NCBI GenBank assembly: GCA_030524135.1
Contig: JAUNHA010000024.1
Location: 1-32,826, forward strand
Source: Eubacteriales bacterium
GTDB lineage: Bacteria; Bacillota; Clostridia; Lachnospirales; Lachnospiraceae
Length of the DNA stretch: 32,826 bases
Reading direction: 5' to 3'
Shown in pieces: positions 7,600 to 29,288 of the stretch (the stretch's first letter is position 1; every line of letters starts with the position of its first letter). A model generated the notes under the pieces. It made no database searches and was not told where the DNA came from. It was given only the letters and a program-made list of their open reading frames with translations. Position numbers and translations under genes: made by a program.

Positions 7600-10350
7600 T
7601 CAGACAAGGATCCGTGCCCGGCTTCCCCCGGTTCTTTCCTTTGTCACGACGATCTGCCGGTCGATCTTTTCCTTTAGCTCCGATACATGGGAAATGATTC
7701 CCACAAGCCTGTGTCCCTCGCTGAGGCCGGAAAGCGCTCTGAACGCCTGATCGAGCGATTCTCCGTCGAGGGAGCCGAAACCTTCATCCACAAACATCGT
7801 ATCGAGCCGCACGCCTCCGGCAGAGGACTGGATCTCATCGGAAAGTCCGAGCGCAAGGGAAAGCGAAGCCTTGAATGCCTCTCCGCCGGACAGCGTCTTC
7901 ACGCTCCTTTCGCTTCCGTTATAATGATCGATCACGTCGAGTTCAAGTCCGCTCTGGCTGCGCAGGTTCTCTGCTTCCCTGCGGCGCTTCAGCTCATACT
8001 GTCCCCCTGACATCACCATAAAACGCGTGTTCGCACGGGCGATCACACGGTCGAAATAATGTGTCTGCACCCAGGTTTCAAGCATCACCTTTTCTTTTCC
8101 GGGAAGCGTACCGTTTGCCGTATCAGACAGCGCCTTGAGCCAGCCGAGCTTTTCTTCAAGCTTTGAAAGGCGGTCTGTACGTCCGGAAATTCCCTGCTGC
8201 GCGGACAGATTTACGGAAAGCTCAGCATGCAGCTCCTTTTCCGCCTCACGGATCCGCATATCCTCTTTCTTAAGAGATTCCTCTTCCCTGCGGAAAGCCT
8301 CCGCATCGATCTTCGGCAGATCTCCAATCAGTTTCCTGAGCTGCTCCTGTTTCCCTGCAAGAGTCCCAAGCACATTCTCCTCCTCTTTCTTTTCCCGCTC
8401 CGCTCTTTCAAGCGTTTTCTGATACTGTTTCTTTTTCGCCTGCAGGCAGGAAAGCTCATTTTCCGCCCTTTCAATGTCAGGAAACGAAAGCTTCTCCGAA
8501 AGCTCCGACGCCGTCCTTCGCTCCGTTTCAGCATTTGCTGAAAGCGCCGCCAGCTCCGGTTTCAGCAAATTGATCTTTTCCCGGTATTCCTCAAAACGCT
8601 TTTCTTTTAAGCCGGTCTCTTCCTTAAGCGCTTCTCTGCGCTTTTTCTTTTCCTGAAGCTTCAAAAGCGCGGCGCTCAGCCCCGTCTGTTTTCTCTTACA
8701 GTCCGCAAGCTCAAGCTGCAGCCTGCTCTCAGCATCCTCCGCCGAGCCGCCTGATTTCCGTTCAAGCTCTCTCTTTGCCGTTTCCAGGCTTCCGCCGAGC
8801 CCGTGAGCCTTCTCGCTCGCCTCATTCTGCTTCTTTTCCGCAAGGTCTTTCTTCCGTCTGCTCAGATCCAGCTGTTCTCTGGTCGGCGCTGCTTCCGGCA
8901 TTTTCGCAACAGACGGATGCTCACACGATCCGCAGACAGGACACGGACTTCCCGGTACAAGGCCTGCCGCGAGCACCCCCGCCTGCGCGTCGAGATACGC
9001 GCGGTTTTCCCGTTCGTACTGCTGCCTTTCGCTCTCCGCCTCCGTGCGCGCCTTAAGATATTCATGCTGTGCCTTTTCAAATGTCTGCTTCAGCTTTTCG
9101 TACTCCGCGCAGTCTTTCTTAAGCGCTTCCAGATCTGTTCTGTGCTGCTCCGCTTTTTCCATCTCCGCTTTAAGCGCCTGTTCTTCTGTCCCGGTTTCCA
9201 AAAGTGTTTCCGCCTCTTCCTTAAGCGCCTTCAGTCTGACTTCCGTTTGCCGGAATAATGTCTGCGTGTGTAAAAGCTCCTCCGCTTTCTCAGTATGCTG
9301 CTTTTCCAGGCTGGCGATCCGCTCCTGCAGCTGAGAGAGCCTGTGGTAATCCGGCAAAAGCAGTTCGATCCGCGTGATCTGTGAAGACAAACGCTCGATC
9401 TCCGGCTTTTGTTCCAGAAGCTTTTCGTATGTCTCCGCGGCCTTAAGCGCCCGCGTCTCTGCCTGTTTCTTTTCCTCTGAAGTCCGTGAAAGCTCCTGTT
9501 CTCTTTCCACGCGTTCGTCCGCCGCACGAAGCGTTTCCTTCACCGCGTCCATCTTCTGATCGAGCACATTCTTTTCGGCGGAAAGCGCCTTTTCCCGCTC
9601 TCCTGCCCTTTCGATCAGCTCAGAGAGAAGTCCCGCCGTCTCCTCCATGGAAAGCTCCCCTGCCTTTGCCTTTTCCGCCTTCAGGAAAAGCGAATCCGTC
9701 TCTTTGCAGACGATCTGTGATACGAACTGGCGGATGCCGTCCCGCTCCGCGTCGCATGCCCGGCTAAGACTGAGCGCTTCCGTTCGTAGCAGATCCTGCA
9801 CACGGCTGTAACGCTCTGTCCGGAAGATCTGCCGAAAGATCTTTTTCCGCTCCTCCGTGGGGGAAAGCAGCAGCTTCAGGAAATCGCCCTGCGCGATCAT
9901 CGCGATCCGGGCAAACTGGCTGCGGTCCATACCCATGATCTCCCGGATCGCCGCATCCACATCCTTCAGCTTGGTTATGACCCGTCCGTCCGGATACCAG
10001 AGCTCTGCCTCCGCCTTCTGTTTCGTAACGCCGCCGCCCCGTTTTGCCGGGCGTTCGTATTCCGGATTCCGCCTGACGCGGTAGATCTTTCCGCCGTAGA
10101 GAAACCGCAGTTCAACCTCTGTCGGCGTCTCCGGCGCCGCATACTTTGAACGGAACATGACCGGTTCCCGGTTTTCCCCGCTCGCACCGCCGTAGAGAGC
10201 AAAACTGATCGCATCAAAAATGGTCGTCTTCCCTGCGCCCGTATCTCCCGCGATCAGATACAACCCGCTCTCTCCCAGTGCGTCCATATTGAGTTCCGTC
10301 CGTCCCGCATAGGGTCCGAAGGCAGATATCATTAAATGCAATGGTCTCAT
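7600..10350 (-). CDS. sbcC: Exonuclease subunit SbcC (Rad50-like ATPase)
   Basis: A 916-residue SMC-like ATPase. Walker A GDTGAGKTT is at about residues 35-43. Long Glu/Lys/Arg-rich coiled coils flank a zinc-hook CPVCG near residue 470. Near the C-terminus are signature LSGGEAFKASLSLALGL and Walker B MFVDEGFGSLD. It forms a heterotetramer with SbcD that opens DNA hairpins and trims blocked double-strand ends. The start is the ATG at 10350, seven bases after GGAGGGG and one base past the sbcD stop; the form from 10383 would run into sbcD without a good ribosome site. It is the last gene of a four-gene repair operon that also holds an 8-oxoguanine glycosylase. Confidence 0.95.
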   Translation of the reverse strand: MRPLHLMISAFGPYAGRTELNMDALGESGLYLIAGDTGAGKTTIFDAISFALYGGASGENREPVMFRSKYAAPETPTEVELRFLYGGKIYRVRRNPEYERPAKRGGGVTKQKAEAELWYPDGRVITKLKDVDAAIREIMGMDRSQFARIAMIAQGDFLKLLLSPTEERKKIFRQIFRTERYSRVQDLLRTEALSLSRACDAERDGIRQFVSQIVCKETDSLFLKAEKAKAGELSMEETAGLLSELIERAGEREKALSAEKNVLDQKMDAVKETLRAADERVEREQELSRTSEEKKQAETRALKAAETYEKLLEQKPEIERLSSQITRIELLLPDYHRLSQLQERIASLEKQHTEKAEELLHTQTLFRQTEVRLKALKEEAETLLETGTEEQALKAEMEKAEQHRTDLEALKKDCAEYEKLKQTFEKAQHEYLKARTEAESERQQYERENRAYLDAQAGVLAAGLVPGSPCPVCGSCEHPSVAKMPEAAPTREQLDLSRRKKDLAEKKQNEASEKAHGLGGSLETAKRELERKSGGSAEDAESRLQLELADCKRKQTGLSAALLKLQEKKKRREALKEETGLKEKRFEEYREKINLLKPELAALSANAETERRTASELSEKLSFPDIERAENELSCLQAKKKQYQKTLERAEREKKEEENVLGTLAGKQEQLRKLIGDLPKIDAEAFRREEESLKKEDMRIREAEKELHAELSVNLSAQQGISGRTDRLSKLEEKLGWLKALSDTANGTLPGKEKVMLETWVQTHYFDRVIARANTRFMVMSGGQYELKRRREAENLRSQSGLELDVIDHYNGSERSVKTLSGGEAFKASLSLALGLSDEIQSSAGGVRLDTMFVDEGFGSLDGESLDQAFRALSGLSEGHRLVGIISHVSELKEKIDRQIVVTKERTGGSRARILV

Positions 10351-10351
10351 C

Positions 10352-11515
10352 TTACATCCCCTCCGGCTCCGACACACGCTCAAGCAGCTCCAGAAGATAG
10401 GTCCGCTGCGTATCCGTCATCGGCTGCCCGTTCTGTGTCTCATAAAATGCCGCAAACAGCTCCTCCGGCGTCTGCTTCCGCATTCTCTGCGCAGAAAACT
10501 CCGGCAGTTCTCCCTGCGCCCTGGTTCTCGTATTGTCATAATCAAGCTTCATCAGATTGGGATAGATCACCCGCAGCTTTCCGATCGCATCTGGTACATC
10601 GAACTCATCCGTCAGCGTAATATGCAGATAGTCCTCCGTCTTCGTACCGGCATAATTCTCCTTTGCGGTAAGCTCCATATAGCTTCCCCTAAGCTCCCGC
10701 AGTTCATGAAGCGGTATCAGCGGAATCGTACGGATCTCTGCCGCTCCCTTCTCCCCAAGCTCCACAAGGGTAAGGGACTTATGATCCCGGCATTCCGAAA
10801 AGGAGTATCTGAGCGGTGTTCCGCAGTAACGGATCACGGTTCCCGCGGGTCCTCCGACAGTCTGCGGCCTGTGCAGATGTCCGAGCGCCACATAATCAAA
10901 ACCTGCAAACACAGATGCATCCACGTTGTCGAGGCCGCCGATGGAAAGCTCCTCGGATTCGGCACGCTCCGCTCCCGTCACAAACTGGTGCGACAGCAGA
11001 ACATTCCGGACAGAATCGTCTTTTTTCTCAACCTGCATGGCATCGACCGCGATGCGCAGTGCATCCGTATAATCCCTGATTTCCTGATCCGGAAATGCCG
11101 CCCGTACCGCTGCCGGCTTTAAAAACGGCAGCAGGTAAAAACGGACCGGACCAATCGCGTCCCTGCATTCGATCATTTCAGCCGTTCCGTTATAAACAGG
11201 AGAAAGGTAAACGCCGCTTTGATCCATCAGCCGCGAACCGAAGGAAAGGCGTTCCGGAGAATCGTGATTTCCGCTTATGACAAAAACTCTGGAGGAAAGC
11301 TTCGACAGCCTCCATAAAAACGCATCGAACAGTCCGACCGCCTCCGCGGAAGGTACGGACTTGTCATAAATATCCCCCGCGATCAGAACCGCATCCGGAC
11401 ACTCCGCCTCCAGAATACGCAGAATTTCCCACAGAATATATTTCTGATCCCCGATCATGGAAAAACCGTTTACATATTTTCCGATATGAAGATCCGAAAG
11501 ATGGACGAATTTCAT
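10352..11515 (-). CDS. sbcD: Exonuclease subunit SbcD (Mre11-like nuclease)
   Basis: A 387-residue metallophosphoesterase nuclease. Metal-binding motifs appear in order: DLHIG (residues 8-12), GDIYD (47-51), GNHDS (82-86), LLSHQF, then GHLHR. A capping and SbcC-binding C-terminal part follows. It supplies the nuclease active site of SbcCD. Its ATG overlaps the stop of the upstream glycosylase-fusion gene by four bases (ATGA), and its own stop is one base from the sbcC start, so expression of all three should be tightly linked. Length is normal for the family. Confidence 0.96.
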
Positions 11516-12690
11516 GCGCGCGCCTCCCCATGCGTTTCATAGTAAAAAATATACTGCTGCAGGACGCCTGCATCCTTTCCGTAAAACGGAAAATAGTCCT
11601 GTCCCAGAAATCCGTCCCGGATCGCCCGCTCAATCCACACGTCTACCGGTACCATCGCCAGTCTGCCGTAGCCGAACAGCATAATGCAGCTCGCCACCTT
11701 TTTCCCGACACCGTATCCTGCAAGAAGTGCCTCATACAGCGCTTCATCAGAAAGTCCGGAAAGCTCCGCAGGATCTATTTCACCCGTGTATACGCGGCGT
11801 GCCGCATCCCGCACATAAGGCGCGCGGTAGCCAAGCCCGCAGGCTGAAAGCGCCTCCGGGGATGCCTGATACAGCGCTTCCGGGGACGGGAACGCGTAAA
11901 GTCCTTCCGCAAGCGGGCGGCCAAAGCTCCTGCAGAGCGCTTCCACCGCCGTCATGATCGCAGGAATACTTTTTCTCTGCGAAAGGATGAAGGTGATCAT
12001 CATTTCCCACGGATCCTGTCTGAGGATCCGAAGTCCCCGCCCGGACTTCACGGCGCGGTCGGCAAATGTAAGCGCCTCCTCTGGGAGCGCAGCCCCGATC
12101 CCCGCCTTTTTTATCCGCCTGCGGATTGCCGTATAGCTGCGCGGAAAGTCAAAATAGGGCTTCCAGGTCTGCTCCCATGCCTGCTCCGTGCAGGAGACGG
12201 CATAGCAGCCCGGAGCATCGCCTTCTTTTCTGATATACAGCACTTCTTCCCCTGTAATAAAACGATACCATCCGTCTGAAAGCTCCTTTACGCGGAAGCA
12301 CTGTCCGCTCAGCCTTATTTTTTCAAGATCAAAATCATCCTTTATCAGGATATGATGCTTTGTTTCTGTCATCCCGCTTCCTTCTTTATTTCCTGCCGCT
12401 GCTGAAATTTCATCCGCTGGCAGATCTGTTGCAGGCATCTGCCATGCTTCGATCAGCTTGAGCTTCTGCTGCCTTGTAAGCTGTTTCAGCTCATATTCCC
12501 TGCGCATCGCCGCCTCCTTGCTTCCAAAGCTTTCCCAGTATACAAGCTCTGCCGGCAGCCTTGCCCGCGTATACTTCGCACCCTTTCCCGCATTATGCGC
12601 GGCAACGCGGTGCGAAAGATCGTTCGTCCAGCCGCAGTAGAGCGTATCATCCGCACAGCGCAGAATATAACTGTAATTTCCCTCTGCCAT
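11512..12690 (-). CDS. Fusion of a GIY-YIG endonuclease domain and an OGG1-type 8-oxoguanine DNA glycosylase
   Basis: A 392-residue two-domain protein. Residues 5-80 match the small stand-alone GIY-YIG (UPF0213/YhbQ-like) fold: [20 protein letters not shown], then [15 protein letters not shown] and AMRREYELK, with Glu65 as the likely metal ligand. After a Gly/Ala-rich linker, residues 112-392 match OGG1. They show [41 protein letters not shown] and [11 protein letters not shown]. Lys331 aligns with human catalytic Lys249, and Asp350 in VPVDVW aligns with Asp268 at the same 19-residue spacing. It should excise 8-oxoguanine and cut the abasic site; the nuclease half's target is unknown. It lies 14 bases after yaaA and overlaps sbcD. 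An internal ATG at 12372 has AAGGAAG upstream, so a glycosylase-only product is possible. Confidence 0.9.
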
Positions 12691-12704
12691 TCGTCTGCGT
12701 CCTT

Positions 12705-13484
12705 TTACTCTGCTTCTTTTACAAATACAAAAGTCTTCTCATCCGAATCCGCCTCGGAGAAAGCAAATCCAAGCCCTGCAAACGCCTTCATCTCCTCCGG
12801 ATCTTCCGCGCGGCGCTCCGCAAGAAAACGCACCATTTCTCCGCGTGCCATCTTTGCAAGCGTAGCCTTCTGCCTGAGTTTTCCCGCCGCCCGCTCTGCA
12901 AACACACAGCTGATATAGCGGTCTTCCTTTGTCAGATATGGCTCCACTGCCTTTGCATACTCCTTCGAAGCCAGATTGATGACCGGCTCCGGCTCCTGCT
13001 CCCTGCCGGATGCAGGCCTGTTCTCTCCGGTCAGGAACTTATAGATCCGGTTTCCCCAGAAACCATACAGATCCTTTGCCTTCCCGGTCTTAAGCGCTGC
13101 CTGCATTTCAAGGCGGTACGGCACCACACCGTCGAACGGCCTCAAAATCCCGTAAAAACCCGACAGGATAAACAGATGCTCTGAAAGCCAGGAGAGTGCC
13201 TCCGCCTCCAGCGTCTTCGGCGCCAGATACTGATACTGAATGCCCTCGTAGGCGATCAGCGCGGGCGTCGTTCCCCTTGAAAGATCCATTTGCCGGAACC
13301 TCTCAAAATTAAGCTCTGCCAGCCTGTCATTGCATCTCCAGAGTGCTTTTGCTTCCGCAAAGGAAAGCGCCTGTACGGCGCGCATCAGTATTTCTGTCTC
13401 CTCTATAAAAACAGGGCTGCCCTCCATCCGGAAAGTATCCGGATCTTCTATCATCTTCTTCGCCGGTGAAATGATCAGTTTCAT
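12705..13484 (-). CDS. yaaA: Peroxide stress protein YaaA (UPF0246/DUF328)
   Basis: A 259-residue cytosolic protein. The N-terminal [11 protein letters not shown], then [31 protein letters not shown] and NLASKEY are family hallmarks. In Escherichia coli, YaaA limits free iron during hydrogen peroxide stress, and the fold has DNA-binding features. I chose the ATG at 13484 because AAGGAG lies nine bases upstream and the conserved N-terminus begins there; a GTG at 13511 would add nine unusual residues. First gene of the operon with the glycosylase fusion and sbcDC, which fits a response to oxidative DNA damage. Confidence 0.92.
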
Positions 13485-13537
13485 ATCAGTTTTCTCCTTC
13501 ATCCCCTTCACCCTTCGGGTTCGGCTCGCTGTGTTTT

Positions 13538-18057: not shown

Positions 18058-19842
18058 TTAGCAGCACTTCGACACGATCACATTTCCGTTTCTGTCACGC
18101 TGCGGGCTTCTCGGCATCTCCCATGAATCATGGTTTGTATGCAGAAGATGATGCGCCTTGTGGCTGTTCGGCTTCTCAAAATAGTTATTGTAGAGCGCCT
18201 GCACGTCCGGATTCTCATGCGAATACCGAAGCTTGCTGCTGCCATCGAGGAAGTAGAGGTTCTTTCCGCGCTCATACGCCATCTCAAAACCATCGTGGAT
18301 CGGCTGTCCGCCGCCGCCTACGCAGCCGCCCGGGCAGGCCATGACTTCTACGAAATCATACTTCTTCTCACCGCGCTCGATCTGGTTGATCAGCCTTCTT
18401 GCATTGCCGAGGCCGTTTACGACCGCGATATGCAGGTTAATACCCTTAAGCTCGAATTCCGCCTCTGCGAGATCCGTATCCTGAGAGGTTGCGCGGACCA
18501 TCTTGAAGGCATCCGGCGGGCAGTTCTCACCCATGATCGCAAAGTATGCGGTACGAAGAGCCGCCTCCATAACGCCGCCCGTTGCACCGAAGATAATGCC
18601 GGCACCGGTTACGTCATGGAACAGTCTGTCAGGCTCTACATCCTTGAGCATCGCAGGAATGAGGTTCGAAGAACGGATCATTCTTGTCAGCTCTCTCGTC
18701 GTGATAACACAGTCCGTATCATGTCCCGCATACTCGTCGTGGAAGAGCTCCATATTTGCTTCGCCCTTCTTTGCAAGACACGGCATGATCGCTACGGAAT
18801 AGATATCCTCCGGCTTCCTTCCGATCTGCTCCGCAAAATAGCTCTTCATGACAGCACCGAACATCTGCATCGGTGACTTTGCGGAAGACAGCTGCGGAAC
18901 GAGATGCGGGAACTGGCTCTTGATAAAACGGATCCAGCCCGGGCAGCAGGAGGTAAACATCGGACGCTCCTGAAGCTCACCCTTTGTAAAGCGGTCGATG
19001 AACTCGTTCGCCTCTTCCATGATCGTAAGGTCAGCCGTAAAGCTTGTATCAAATACATAGTCCACGCCCATACGCTTGAGCGCGTCAAAGATCTTTCCTA
19101 CAGTCGCCTCTTCCGGCGCAATGCCAAGTGCCTCGCCCCAGCCTGCACGAACTGCCGGAGCCACCTGAACAACGACTACTTTGTTCGGATCGGCGATCGC
19201 CGCCCAGAGCTTCTCGGTATCGTCACGCTCACGCAGCGCACCAACCGGGCAATGGGTAATGCACTGTCCGCAGAGCGAGCAGTCCGCCTCGGAAATGGTA
19301 CGGCTTCCGGATACGTTGACCGTTGAACGCGCACCGGTACCTTCGAAATCCCAGATGTTAAGGCTCTGCACCTTATCGCAGATCTGGATGCAGCGCATGC
19401 ACTTAATGCACTTCTGTGAGTTCCTGATCAGCGGGAAGCTCTGATCCCACGGCTGGAACTCAAGTCTCTCGCCGAAACGGATATCCTGAATGTTCAGGTC
19501 GTTTGCGAGCTTCTGAAGCGAGCAGTTGCCGCTTCTTACGCAGGTTGCGCACTTGCAGTCATGCTGGGACAGGATGAGCTGCACGGTACGTCTGCGGTCG
19601 AGTCTTACCTTCGGGCTGTTGGTGTGGATCACCATACCCTCTTCTACTACATTATTGCAGGCGGTGATCAGGCGTTCCTTGCCCTCTACCTCTACCACGC
19701 AGGCGCGGCAGGCTGCAATTTCGTTGATTTTCTTTAAAAAGCAAAGATGCGGAATCGGGATGCCGGCGCTCGCCGCCGCTTCCATGATCGTAGTTCCCTC
19801 AGCCGCCTGTACGAGCTTATTATCTATTGTTAAATTTACCAT
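18058..19842 (-). CDS. hydA: [FeFe] hydrogenase catalytic subunit, group A NAD(P)-linked type
   Basis: A 594-residue hydrogenase. A plant-type [2Fe-2S] domain uses Cys34, 45, 48 and 62. A His-Cys cluster lies at HDCKCATCVRSGNC, and two [4Fe-4S] clusters at CIKCMRCIQIC and CSLCGQCITHC. The H-cluster motifs are complete: L1 TSCCPGW with Cys299 and 300, L2 MPCLAKKGE with Cys354, L3 ACPGGCVGGGGQP with Cys503 and 507. The small-subunit-like tail follows. It makes or oxidises hydrogen. Its ATG lies inside the end of the upstream flavoprotein gene (7-base overlap), with AAAGGAGG upstream, so the two are coupled and probably form one complex. The tail ends in two adjacent cysteines, which is odd. No HydE, HydF or HydG maturase gene is in the window. 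Confidence 0.95.
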   Translation of the reverse strand: MVNLTIDNKLVQAAEGTTIMEAAASAGIPIPHLCFLKKINEIAACRACVVEVEGKERLITACNNVVEEGMVIHTNSPKVRLDRRRTVQLILSQHDCKCATCVRSGNCSLQKLANDLNIQDIRFGERLEFQPWDQSFPLIRNSQKCIKCMRCIQICDKVQSLNIWDFEGTGARSTVNVSGSRTISEADCSLCGQCITHCPVGALRERDDTEKLWAAIADPNKVVVVQVAPAVRAGWGEALGIAPEEATVGKIFDALKRMGVDYVFDTSFTADLTIMEEANEFIDRFTKGELQERPMFTSCCPGWIRFIKSQFPHLVPQLSSAKSPMQMFGAVMKSYFAEQIGRKPEDIYSVAIMPCLAKKGEANMELFHDEYAGHDTDCVITTRELTRMIRSSNLIPAMLKDVEPDRLFHDVTGAGIIFGATGGVMEAALRTAYFAIMGENCPPDAFKMVRATSQDTDLAEAEFELKGINLHIAVVNGLGNARRLINQIERGEKKYDFVEVMACPGGCVGGGGQPIHDGFEMAYERGKNLYFLDGSSKLRYSHENPDVQALYNNYFEKPNSHKAHHLLHTNHDSWEMPRSPQRDRNGNVIVSKCC

Positions 19843-21668
19843 AATCTCTCACGGCCTCCTTTGAAGATTCCAAATCCGAAGTGGTCGCAGCGCAGGCATC
19901 TGCCGGCTTCCTGACACGCTTCTTTCTGGTTCATGCAGTTCTCAATTCCTTCAAAATCATGCATACGGATGCAGGCCTCGCGCTCGGTAAGCTCGATGCG
20001 TCCGCAGGCAGAATGGTCGTCGATATTTGGTGCAGGGATCTCCACATCACAGGTGATCTCGTGATGATATCCCAGATATTCGTCAATGTTTGCAGCCATA
20101 ACCTTAGCCGCTGCTACGGCCTTGATTACGGTTGCAGGTCCGGACGCACAGTCTCCGCCCGCAAACAGACCCGGAAGTCCCGGGAATCCTCCGTTCGGAA
20201 GCGTCATGATCTTGCCGCGCGCAACCGGAATGCCGGATTCCTCGTAATGTCTCGTCTCGATGTTCTGTCCGATCGCAACGATCAGCGTTGTGCACGGAAT
20301 GTACTCGTCCTCTTCTCCGGTTGCAATCACCGAAGCACGGCCGTCTTTGATCTTCGAGATCATCTGCGGCGTTACCCAGATGCCGCGAAGCTTTCCGTTC
20401 TCATCGATATCAAGCTTTGACGGAGCCTTGAGGGTCAGCATTTCAACGCCCTCTGCCATCGCACCCTCGATCTCCGCCGGAAGAGCAGTCATGTCGGCAA
20501 TTCTGCGGCGGTATACGCAGCTTACCTTCTTTGCACCCTTGCGGACAGCAGTGCGGACAGCGTCCATCGCCACGTTTCCGCCGCCGATAATCGCAACCTC
20601 CTGATCCTTGAGATCCAGCTCCTTTTCAAGACCGACATTGCGCAGGAAATAAACCGCAGATACGATTCCATCCGCGTCCTCGCCTTCAAGACCAAGTTTT
20701 TTATCGGTAGACGCGCCGATCGTGATCAGCACGGCGTCATACTCTTTTCTGAGACCGTCAAGCGTAATATCCTGGCCGATCTTGAGGCCGTACTTCACCT
20801 CAACGCCGGTCTCGAGGATCGCCTCGATATCCTCGTCAAGACGCTCTTTCGGAAGACGGTAGTTCGGGATACCGTAGCGCAGCATGCCGCCGAGCTTCGG
20901 AAGCATCTCGTATACGGTCACCTGGTGTCCCATCAGCTGCAGATAGTAAGCTGCTGACAGTCCGCCCGGACCTCCGCCTACGACAGCGATCTTCTTTCCG
21001 GTGGACGGACCGCACTTCGGCGCCGGTACCTTGCCGGCAAAATCCGCCGCAACACGCTTGATGCCGCGGATATTGATCGCGTCATCCACCATGTTTCTGC
21101 GGCAGCGCTCCTCACACGGATGCTCGCAGATAAATGCACAGGTCGTCGGGAACGGGTTGTCCTTGCGGATCAGCTTCACAGCATCCGCATAGCGTCCCTC
21201 TCTGACAAGCGCAATATAACCGGGCACATCCACATGTGCCGGGCACATCGCAACGCAGGGAACAGGCTGTGTCGTCATACAGGTACATCTGCCGTGATGT
21301 ACATGCTCCTCATAGTCCTCATGGCAGTTCTTGATGCTGCGGTATACGACCCGCGCCGCCTCATATCCGATCGCGCAGTCCGCCGTCTCCATGATCGATT
21401 TTGATGTGTCCTCGATCAGGTCAAGCGTCTCCAGCGTCGCCTCTCCATTCAGTACATCCGTCAGCAGATGCTTAAGCTGCAGAAGTCCGACACGGCAGGG
21501 TACGCACTTTCCGCAGGTCTGGGAATGTGCCATCTCGATAAACGCGCGCGTGATATCCACCGGGCAGAGACCGGGCGGGCTCGCAGCAATTCTGCGTTCG
21601 AGATTGCCGTACAGATCCTCAACTACCAACTGAGCCTTACTCGGGGTAAGTATCTCAAGTCTGCTCAT
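19836..21668 (-). CDS. Fusion flavoprotein: NuoF C-terminal iron-sulfur domain plus GltD-like NAD(P)H oxidoreductase
   Basis: A 610-residue protein. Residues 40-115 match only the C-terminal [4Fe-4S] part of NuoF/HydB (SQTCGKCVPCRVGLLQL, later METADCAIG), without the FMN and NADH domain. Residues 135-600 resemble the small subunit of glutamate synthase. They have a Cys-rich N-domain (PCVAMCPAHVDVPGY, CEHPCEERC), FAD-binding VVGGGPGGLSAAYYL, NAD(P)-binding AIIGGGNVAMDAVRTA and FAGGDCASGPATV. A further Cys-rich tail has CLRCDHFG. It probably passes electrons between NAD(P)H and the hydrogenase encoded next, with the GltD part replacing the missing FMN module. GGAGGGAG precedes the ATG. Electron bifurcation is possible but not shown. 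Confidence 0.88.
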   Translation of the reverse strand: MSRLEILTPSKAQLVVEDLYGNLERRIAASPPGLCPVDITRAFIEMAHSQTCGKCVPCRVGLLQLKHLLTDVLNGEATLETLDLIEDTSKSIMETADCAIGYEAARVVYRSIKNCHEDYEEHVHHGRCTCMTTQPVPCVAMCPAHVDVPGYIALVREGRYADAVKLIRKDNPFPTTCAFICEHPCEERCRRNMVDDAINIRGIKRVAADFAGKVPAPKCGPSTGKKIAVVGGGPGGLSAAYYLQLMGHQVTVYEMLPKLGGMLRYGIPNYRLPKERLDEDIEAILETGVEVKYGLKIGQDITLDGLRKEYDAVLITIGASTDKKLGLEGEDADGIVSAVYFLRNVGLEKELDLKDQEVAIIGGGNVAMDAVRTAVRKGAKKVSCVYRRRIADMTALPAEIEGAMAEGVEMLTLKAPSKLDIDENGKLRGIWVTPQMISKIKDGRASVIATGEEDEYIPCTTLIVAIGQNIETRHYEESGIPVARGKIMTLPNGGFPGLPGLFAGGDCASGPATVIKAVAAAKVMAANIDEYLGYHHEITCDVEIPAPNIDDHSACGRIELTEREACIRMHDFEGIENCMNQKEACQEAGRCLRCDHFGFGIFKGGRERLW

Positions 21669-27687: not shown

Positions 27688-29208
27688 TTATTCCACCAGC
27701 TTATCAAGCTCCTTGACATATTCCGTCTCGTTGGAGGTCCTGTGCTTCGCCTTGTTTGCATACAGGCTGACCGCAGCTGCTGATTTCTGAATCGGCTGCA
27801 TCGTGCCGGCGCCTGCCACGCATCCGCCCGGACACGCCATTCCCTCAAGCAGATAGCCGTTGTATTTTCCTGCCTTTGCTGCCATAAGCATCTTCCGGCA
27901 TTCCCTCAGTCCTTCCGCGTTCATAACGTTTACCTCGCGGTCCGGATATTTTTCCTTAAGCACGTCTACGACTGCCTTCGCAACACCGCCGGAAACCGCA
28001 AAGTTTCTGCCGTCCGTGGACGCGTCATTTACGCCCTCTTCTTCCGGAAGCGACTCAAGATCAATGTGCTTCGCTGCAAAGATGCCCGTCATCTCCTCAA
28101 AGGTCAGTACAAAATCCACGTCCGAACGTACCGTTGTACGCATCGCTTCGAGCTTTTTCGCCGCGCACGGTCCGATAAACACGACCTTGCCGTTTGCGTG
28201 CTGGGACTTGATCAGGCGTGCGCAGAGCGTCATGGGCGTAAGCGCCATGGAGATGCAGTTTGCATGATCCGGGAAGAGCTTCTTTGCCATCATGGACCAT
28301 GCCGGACAGCAGGAAGTTGCCATAAACGGAAGTTTCTCCGGAACCTCCTTCACAAAGTCCTCCGCTTCCTGCGTCGCGCAGAGGTCCGCGCCGATCGCAA
28401 CCTCAAAGACATCGGCAAACCCGAGCGACTTCATCGCCGCACGCAGCTTTCCGGGCGTAACCTTCGGACCGAACTGTCCTACAAAGGCCGGCGCCACGGC
28501 CGCATATACACGCTCACCCGACTGAATGGCACGGATCACCTGGAAGATCTGCGACTTGTCGGCAATCGCACCAAACGGGCAGTTTACAAGGCACATTCCG
28601 CAGGAAACGCATTTTTCATAATCAATATCCGCCTTACCATTTGCATCCGAATGAATGGCGTCCATTCCGCAGGCTGCCGCACAGGGTCTCTCCTGTATAA
28701 TGATCGCATTGTACGAACATACCTGTGCACAGCGTCCGCACTTGATACACTTATCCTGGTCGATATGGGAGCGTCCTGCCATGCGGTCAAGCGAGACCGC
28801 AGCCTTCGGGCAGACCTCCACGCACGGATGTGCAAGACAGCCCTGGCAGCCCTCCGTGATATAAACCCGCTTTTCATGGCAGGCATTGCAGGCAAATTTA
28901 ATTACGTTGATGAGCGGGGGCGTATAATACGTCTCCGGCTTGTCCGCCGCTTCGATATTGTCGGAAAGCGGCGCATGCTCTGCCGCCGTTCTGCACGGAA
29001 GCCCCATCGCAAGGCGCAGGCGCTCTCCTACGATCGCACGCTCAAGAAAGACGTCATTTCTGAAGTTTCCAACCTCTCCAGGAATGATCTTATACGGCAG
29101 TTCCTCAATGCGCTTGTCGATCGGCCACTCCGTGTGATAGGCCATACGCGCAACTTCAGTAAAGATACGGTGACGTATCTCCTGAATTCTGGTCTCAACA
29201 CCTCTCAT
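27688..29208 (-). CDS. [FeFe] hydrogenase, group B type
   Basis: A 506-residue iron hydrogenase. It lacks the [2Fe-2S] domain of the group A enzyme. Instead it has an N-terminal helical region, a Cys-rich segment (CNACHEKRVYITEGCQGC) and clusters CIKCGRCAQVC and CVSCGMCLVNC. H-cluster motifs are L1 TSCCPAW (Cys300, 301), L2 GPCAAKKLEA (Cys348, with Gly where group A has Met), and L3 MACPGGCVAGAG (Cys459, 463). These variants fit group B, whose partners are thought to be ferredoxins. The ATG at 29208 follows AGGGAGGG; a start at 29253 would add 15 unlike residues. It is a single-gene unit with its own terminator. Whether it makes hydrogen or senses it is unknown. Confidence 0.92.
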   Translation of the reverse strand: MRGVETRIQEIRHRIFTEVARMAYHTEWPIDKRIEELPYKIIPGEVGNFRNDVFLERAIVGERLRLAMGLPCRTAAEHAPLSDNIEAADKPETYYTPPLINVIKFACNACHEKRVYITEGCQGCLAHPCVEVCPKAAVSLDRMAGRSHIDQDKCIKCGRCAQVCSYNAIIIQERPCAAACGMDAIHSDANGKADIDYEKCVSCGMCLVNCPFGAIADKSQIFQVIRAIQSGERVYAAVAPAFVGQFGPKVTPGKLRAAMKSLGFADVFEVAIGADLCATQEAEDFVKEVPEKLPFMATSCCPAWSMMAKKLFPDHANCISMALTPMTLCARLIKSQHANGKVVFIGPCAAKKLEAMRTTVRSDVDFVLTFEEMTGIFAAKHIDLESLPEEEGVNDASTDGRNFAVSGGVAKAVVDVLKEKYPDREVNVMNAEGLRECRKMLMAAKAGKYNGYLLEGMACPGGCVAGAGTMQPIQKSAAAVSLYANKAKHRTSNETEYVKELDKLVE

Positions 29209-29231
29209 ATTTCCCTCCCTAACCGGTTTTA

Positions 29232-29252
29232 TGCAAATCTGCAACATTTGCA
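29232..29252. promoter_or_regulatory. Inverted repeat upstream of the group B hydrogenase
   Basis: TGCAAAT-CTGCAAC-ATTTGCA has perfect 7-base arms. It lies just upstream of the ribosome binding site in the short promoter gap, so it could be an operator overlapping the transcription start. I could not settle the promoter hexamers. Confidence 0.45.
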
Positions 29253-29288
29253 AAAAGACTTCGTTAAGTTATCTACAAATACTACTAT

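Follow-up and report, generated by a model that had tools for sequence, protein, structure and literature searches.

An uninterrupted minus-strand frame of 392 codons joins a GIY-YIG nuclease domain to an OGG1-type DNA glycosylase in the draft genome (2.23 Mb, 89 contigs) of an Eubacteriales bacterium of the Lachnospiraceae. The explanation that we favour, and to which we give about an even chance, is that a standalone giy gene and a standalone ogg gene, first a coupled pair, were lately put in one frame by a length change in this lineage. The join looks recent or even accidental, and we regard the protein as a lead, not as a demonstrated new enzyme. Throughout, the window is the whole stretch of DNA that was analysed, 32,826 nucleotides of contig JAUNHA010000024.1 (assembly GCA_030524135.1).

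Domains and catalytic residues of the fused protein

The fused frame comprises the following features.

11512..12690, minus strand: fused ORF, GIY-YIG plus OGG1-type glycosylase, 392 aa, ATG start
12460..12675, minus strand: GIY-YIG domain of the Slx1/UPF0213 type, residues 6-77 (Pfam PF01541, E 6.8e-18)
11998..12342, minus strand: OGG_N domain, residues 117-231 (Pfam, E 4.9e-14)
11617..11994, minus strand: HhH-GPD domain, residues 233-358 (Pfam, E 9.7e-11), holding Lys331 and Asp350
11698-11700, minus strand: Lys331 codon, inside HhH-GPD
11641-11643, minus strand: Asp350 codon, inside HhH-GPD

The in-frame join, first proposed in an earlier note made from the letters alone, is present in the assembled sequence. 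The domain assignments of that note are right, the GIY-YIG, OGG_N and HhH-GPD matches all exceeding the Pfam gathering scores, and Tyr8, Tyr18, Glu65, Lys331 and Asp350 stand at the positions given by its reader; Arg28, His32 and Cys335 are likewise in place. A whole-protein search returns the fused ORF as the sole match within its own genome.

The nearest solved structures to the GIY half are the UPF0213 proteins 1zg2 (BH0048, E 1.1e-18) and 1ywl (EF2693, E 5e-13). Among 45 GIY relatives with 38-70% identity, Tyr18, Arg28, His32 and Glu65 are kept in all 45, and Tyr8 in all 43 that align there. The profile match, the UPF0213 structures and the Tyr/Tyr/Arg/His/Glu set thus assign this half to the Slx1/UPF0213 family, and PMC7017083 places E. 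coli YhbQ in the Slx1 family. According to PMC1564403, prokaryotic Slx1-type GIY-YIG proteins are minimal domains, typically without auxiliary ones; here OGG follows in frame. The fused protein shares the whole domain and its catalytic positions with the standalone relatives, most of which stop within about 25 residues past position 80, whereas it continues into OGG. Beyond residue 80 the standalone tails are mostly short and vary in both length and sequence, so a comparison of the linker with them settles nothing; the idea that the linker is a homologue of such tails was put aside, the tails being too variable to decide. The GIY-YIG domain would presumably nick branched or flap DNA.

The nearest solved structures to the OGG half are 4ejy (E 6.6e-45), deposited as a 3-methyladenine DNA glycosylase, and 3f0z (E 4.7e-41), deposited as an 8-oxoguanine-DNA-glycosylase, which we take to be the C. 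acetobutylicum Ogg. Both outscore the listed N-glycosylase/DNA lyase (OGG1) chains as relatives of this half. These bacterial OGG1 structures and the OGG half have in common OGG_N followed by HhH-GPD, the catalytic Lys and Asp that mark a bacterial OGG1, and a GQCFR motif, the N-terminal GIY-YIG domain being the extra part of the fused protein. The score against the NCBIfam ogg family TIGR00588, 119.2 bits, falls far short of its cut-off of 397.85 bits. Lys331, Cys335 and Asp350 are kept in 138 of 138 OGG relatives, and Lys331 aligns with the 3f0z lysine, a position occupied by Gln in chains 3f10 and 3i0x. In OGG1 the aspartate and the lysine act in 8-oxoguanine excision, the lyase activity being weak and perhaps incidental (PMC3397491); the OGG half would excise 8-oxoguanine by the same mechanism, with Asp350 and Lys331.

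Asn127 and Met132 of 3f0z agree with the CacOGG1 described in PMC3397491. That enzyme takes any opposite base, it seems because Met132 sits where the human enzyme has Arg154. Counted along the 3f0z alignment, Asn127 and Met132 correspond to Arg239 and Ala244 in the fused protein, as in many sampled relatives, and a relaxed opposite-base choice may therefore be expected of the OGG half. The RKS...A stretch that might have signalled a special active site is common to many relatives (Arg239 in 63 of 138, Ala244 in 69 of 138) and is therefore not tied to the fusion. The residue at position 239 of the 138 relatives is Q in 70, R in 63 and N in 5. More generally, the sampled OGGs are of two kinds at the opposite-base site, one with QRKSIPA (together with P(V/I)DVW in the rows shown) and one with QQNN..R and PVDTH, a split that concerns fusion residues 239-244 and 350-352.

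Distribution and precedents of the pairing

A match across both domains was returned for the own genome only at every level sampled: in 1 of 25 genus genomes in the whole-protein search (any match in 22), 1 of 397 family genomes (any match in 314) and 1 of 391 class genomes (any match in 347), both among the matches listed, 1 of 398 phylum genomes (any match in 87), and 1 of 285 genomes of relatives at E 1e-60 (any match in 24); the five samples overlap. A diverged fusion might appear as two separate rows in such whole-protein searches, and a fusion should rank near the top of the list because both halves add to its score. Matches occur in 18 plasmid records and 25 phage records, none covering 80% of the query, and the viral contigs hold no pattern match to the full protein and 15 loci matching the GIY part alone; records very near the window may be absent from these three sets and from the set of 80 OGG loci. 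A recurring GIY-OGG fusion family was sought in the genus, family, class, phylum and relatives samples, among the matches listed, and in plasmids, phages and viral contigs, and was found in none of them. The earlier note had described OGG1 as the less common 8-oxoguanine enzyme in bacteria. Within this group it is nothing out of the ordinary: at E 1e-20, 347 of the 391 class genomes have a match to the query (OGG or GIY), and the class rows other than the own one are all OGG matches, among the matches listed.

The two halves occur apart in the relatives. The GIY part alone matches 218 of the 397 family genomes and, among the matches listed, the open frame around it is shorter than 300 aa, and therefore too short to hold OGG besides, in every row except the own (408 aa) and that of G369 (379 aa). 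The GIY-YIG match of G369 lies at C7:34841-35074, and the listed OGG match of this genome is on a different contig. Some OGG rows start early, at query residues 55-100, among the matches listed; none of the 80 OGG loci has a GIY match in flanks of up to 6 kb. OGG matches were found in 18 of the other genus genomes and standalone GIY in seven, four genomes having both, always on different contigs, and in G222, a genome of the family, a single contig holds giy and ogg matches about 8 kb from each other, among the matches listed. No relative examined has an adjacent unfused giy-ogg pair, and a coupled-pair stage is therefore one that we infer. Homologues encoded as two genes had been named beforehand as a sign against a true fusion. 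That sign is half present: no other fusion was found in the genomes examined, among the matches listed, the genes are separate wherever both were found, and the junction resembles a gene boundary. Outside the window's class, locus L203 (genome G1106) encodes an OGG 52% identical to the window's, as close as the OGGs of its own genus, which may be a matter of transfer or of naming.

The earlier claim that no protein with this pairing has been described stands for the exact OGG1 combination, which was not found in the literature, by titles and abstract openings, among the matches listed. It does not stand for glycosylase/AP lyase plus GIY-YIG in general. The nearest report, PMC1564403, describes an endonuclease III-GIY-YIG fusion in two species of Methanococcales (MJ0613, COG1833) and makes a similar mechanistic suggestion; its authors also caution that GIY-YIG fusions found singly may lack functional relevance. 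Both that fusion and the present one combine GIY-YIG with a base-excision glycosylase. However, COG1833 proteins carry an N-terminal endonuclease III, a C-terminal GIY-YIG domain and a His/Cys-rich tail, whereas the present fusion has the reverse order and includes OGG_N; the glycosylase and the GIY-YIG lineage are different ones, and COG1833 is known from two species, the present fusion from one genome. The fused protein thus falls outside COG1833. A glycosylase-GIY-YIG fusion is therefore a known idea; the OGG1 variant would be new if it exists, and the chance that it does not is considerable.

Gene neighbourhood and origin of the OGG gene

The fused gene lies in an operon-like run of same-strand genes, yaaA, giy::ogg, sbcD and sbcC.

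12705..13511, minus strand: yaaA, peroxide stress protein (PF03883, E 3.8e-77), its stop 14 nt from the fusion ATG
10352..11515, minus strand: sbcD (TIGR00619, 164 bits against a cut-off of 77.65), its start overlapping the fusion stop by 4 nt (ATGA)
7600..10383, minus strand: sbcC (profile matches)

Among the loci scanned, these genes are grouped only in the window (7600-13511). Of the 25 genus genomes, own included, 6 have sbcD and 13 have yaaA, and sbcC adjoins sbcD in the genus loci scanned. Neither giy nor ogg was found in the flanks (up to 1.5 kb) of the other genus sbcD or yaaA loci. Within flanks of up to 6 kb, the 80 OGG loci include none with sbcD and one with yaaA (L078, less than 1 kb from ogg). 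A conserved yaaA-giy-ogg-sbcDC operon was thus not found, its parts lying apart in the scanned loci except for yaaA near ogg in L078. The lineage presumably consists of anaerobes, going by its named relatives. The window also holds two [FeFe]-hydrogenase-type genes (18058-21668 and 27688-29253), the first beside a gene for an iron-sulphur pyridine-nucleotide oxidoreductase.

A mis-binned contig is unlikely. The ligA gene of the window's contig was sought in 26 chosen genomes: 12 of the 25 of the genus, counting the own one, and 14 from outside it, most of which have high-ranking OGGs. A match was found in 24. In the genus, nine are full-length, at 63-68% identity (910-1002 bits), and two more are partial or split in two pieces, with other genera reaching at most 859 bits; ligA is closest to the genus, and the contig therefore fits its bin.

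The OGG part has another affinity. A quick tree built from 137 OGG rows, after removal of identical rows, the own duplicates and one other locus, unites 16 of the 18 genus rows in one group with support 99. The own OGG (11512-12372) falls instead beside rows from Butyrivibrio and a single row from an uncultured Lachnospiraceae, at a fork with support 85. On 52 chosen rows, forcing it into a group with the full set of 18 genus rows carries a cost of 70.8 log units (AU p 0.00218); for the 16 grouped rows, a group picked after the tree was seen, the cost is 47.2 log units (AU p 0.0199). Given the long own branch (0.86) and several weak forks, we call lateral acquisition of the OGG gene within the family likely rather than certain; the failure to group with the genus suggests that a gene from another part of the family took the place of the original one. 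In the same data, the OGGs of L060 (titled Bacillus sp.) and L090 (Muribaculum sp.) group with Lachnospiraceae rows, and these metagenome-bin names may be wrong.

The junction and how it may have arisen

Four features mark the passage from the GIY half to the OGG half.

12373..12438, minus strand: linker, codons 85-106, GC3 0.27 in the fused frame and 0.68 in the +1 frame, which is open
12379..12383, minus strand: AAGGA, a Shine-Dalgarno-like stretch with a 6-nt gap to the internal ATG
12370..12372, minus strand: internal ATG (Met107), in the start zone of the relatives' OGG genes
12369..12371, minus strand: TGA of the +1 frame, overlapping the internal ATG (ATGA)

The earlier note had mentioned neither Met107 and its AAGGA nor the overlapping +1-frame TGA. 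For 137 of the 138 OGG relatives a start could be picked, by a procedure favouring starts backed by a Shine-Dalgarno match, and these starts fall at fusion positions 98-114 with the mode at 112 (77 at 112, five at 107, 125 of 137 within 107-113). A Shine-Dalgarno-like match of at least 5 nt precedes 9 of 242 internal in-frame ATGs, against 6 of the 21 starts of other genes in the window. The match before Met107 is exceeded by the one before Met62, which lies within the GIY domain and has 7 nt, and AAGGA is therefore no proof of a start. An ATGA overlap also occurs at the ogg/sbcD junction.

Reading frames were scored by the codon preferences of 21 genes in the window, which together hold 8466 codons with a GC3 of 0.62. 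Over codons 85-106 the +1 frame reaches 6.36 bits and the fused frame 3.05 bits, in a test that was picked after viewing the junction, covers 22 codons and has overlapping control windows. Of 5320 off-frame windows taken from real genes, 0.3% show an off-frame lead of 3.3 bits or more; among the 2004 that contain no stop, the share is 0.5%. A GC3 of 0.27 or less is seen in 0.7% of real windows (2660 examined); low GC3 is commoner at gene ends, with 2 of 21 starts and 1 of 21 ends at or below this value. A synonymous-codon score as low as that of the linker's fused frame occurs in 3.8% of real windows. The fused frame nevertheless scores like some real coding sequence: 9.6% of 731 real windows lie at or below its 3.05 bits, a value reached by just 2.7% of 550 stop-free off-frame windows, and the linker residues P, A, D, E, G and S resemble an ordinary linker. 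A stop interrupts the +1 frame at codon 79, and a length change would therefore fall after it, the best-scoring places being codons 86-91, with codons 102-104 nearly equal.

These features are consistent with the linker being the former tail of giy, read in the other frame and ending in an ATGA overlap with ogg, and later joined by a length change. They would fit two coupled genes joined recently in this way, whether the change is the organism's own or an error of the assembly. Our preferred reading takes the former course. An Slx1-type GIY-YIG gene and a bacterial OGG1 gene, the latter probably gained by lateral transfer, would have come to adjoin in a private repair operon, in the order yaaA, giy, ogg, sbcD, sbcC, with giy and ogg first coupled through an ATGA stop/start overlap; a recent length change near the end of giy would then have placed both in a single frame in this lineage. 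Free OGG is probably still produced from Met107, perhaps along with the 392-aa fusion, and the two domains would act largely independently, OGG excising 8-oxoguanine and GIY-YIG nicking branched or flap DNA. This reading of the junction relates to one sequence, from one genome of the species.

The second course, an artefact of sequencing or assembly in which two overlapping genes, giy and ogg, were joined by a length error in the draft, appears somewhat unlikely, though it is to be taken seriously. The assembly in 89 contigs, the two-gene boundary signals with the +1-frame coding signature, and the uniqueness of the fusion among the sampled genomes, within the matches listed, are all what it would predict. 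However, the linker has no single-base run longer than 3, and each of the 21 other genes behind the codon statistics has its Pfam match within one open frame, so that, as far as Pfam matches alone can tell, there is little sign of frequent length errors in this contig.

The earlier note had suggested that a tethered nuclease could cut near the lesion or act on structures opened during repair. In a dedicated two-step enzyme of this kind, OGG would remove 8-oxoguanine and leave an abasic site or nick, the tethered GIY-YIG domain would cut nearby, and SbcCD, polymerase and ligase would finish the gap. Both active sites are intact, yaaA, sbcD and sbcC are repair-gene neighbours, and the endonuclease III-GIY-YIG precedent came with a like proposal (PMC1564403). 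We nevertheless hold such an enzyme to be improbable: the fusion is in no other sampled genome, among the matches listed, its junction retains boundary marks, and the warning given in the same paper about the functional relevance of lone GIY-YIG fusions applies to it. A selected dual-product gene, one that yields the full fusion when translated from Met1 and OGG alone when translated from Met107, in a set ratio, is very improbable, because the 5-nt Shine-Dalgarno-like stretches at both starts and the position of Met107 within the natural OGG start zone are equally accounted for by a relict status, and no relative shows conservation.

What the fusion means depends on whether it is real. If it is an artefact, it is a warning that fusions seen in one draft should be doubted when their junction combines a ribosome site with a start codon and with an out-of-frame stop that overlaps. 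If it is real, it would be a single-lineage test case of repair enzymes turning multidomain in which the signals of the gene boundary can still be read, and would link a bacterial Slx1-like nuclease to 8-oxoguanine repair. The boldest form of the idea, a newborn natural fusion in which one polypeptide removes 8-oxoguanine, the tethered Slx1-type nuclease cuts around the abasic site and the internal start supplies free OGG, seems to us a long shot; were it true, the birth of a multifunctional repair enzyme would have been observed mid-process.
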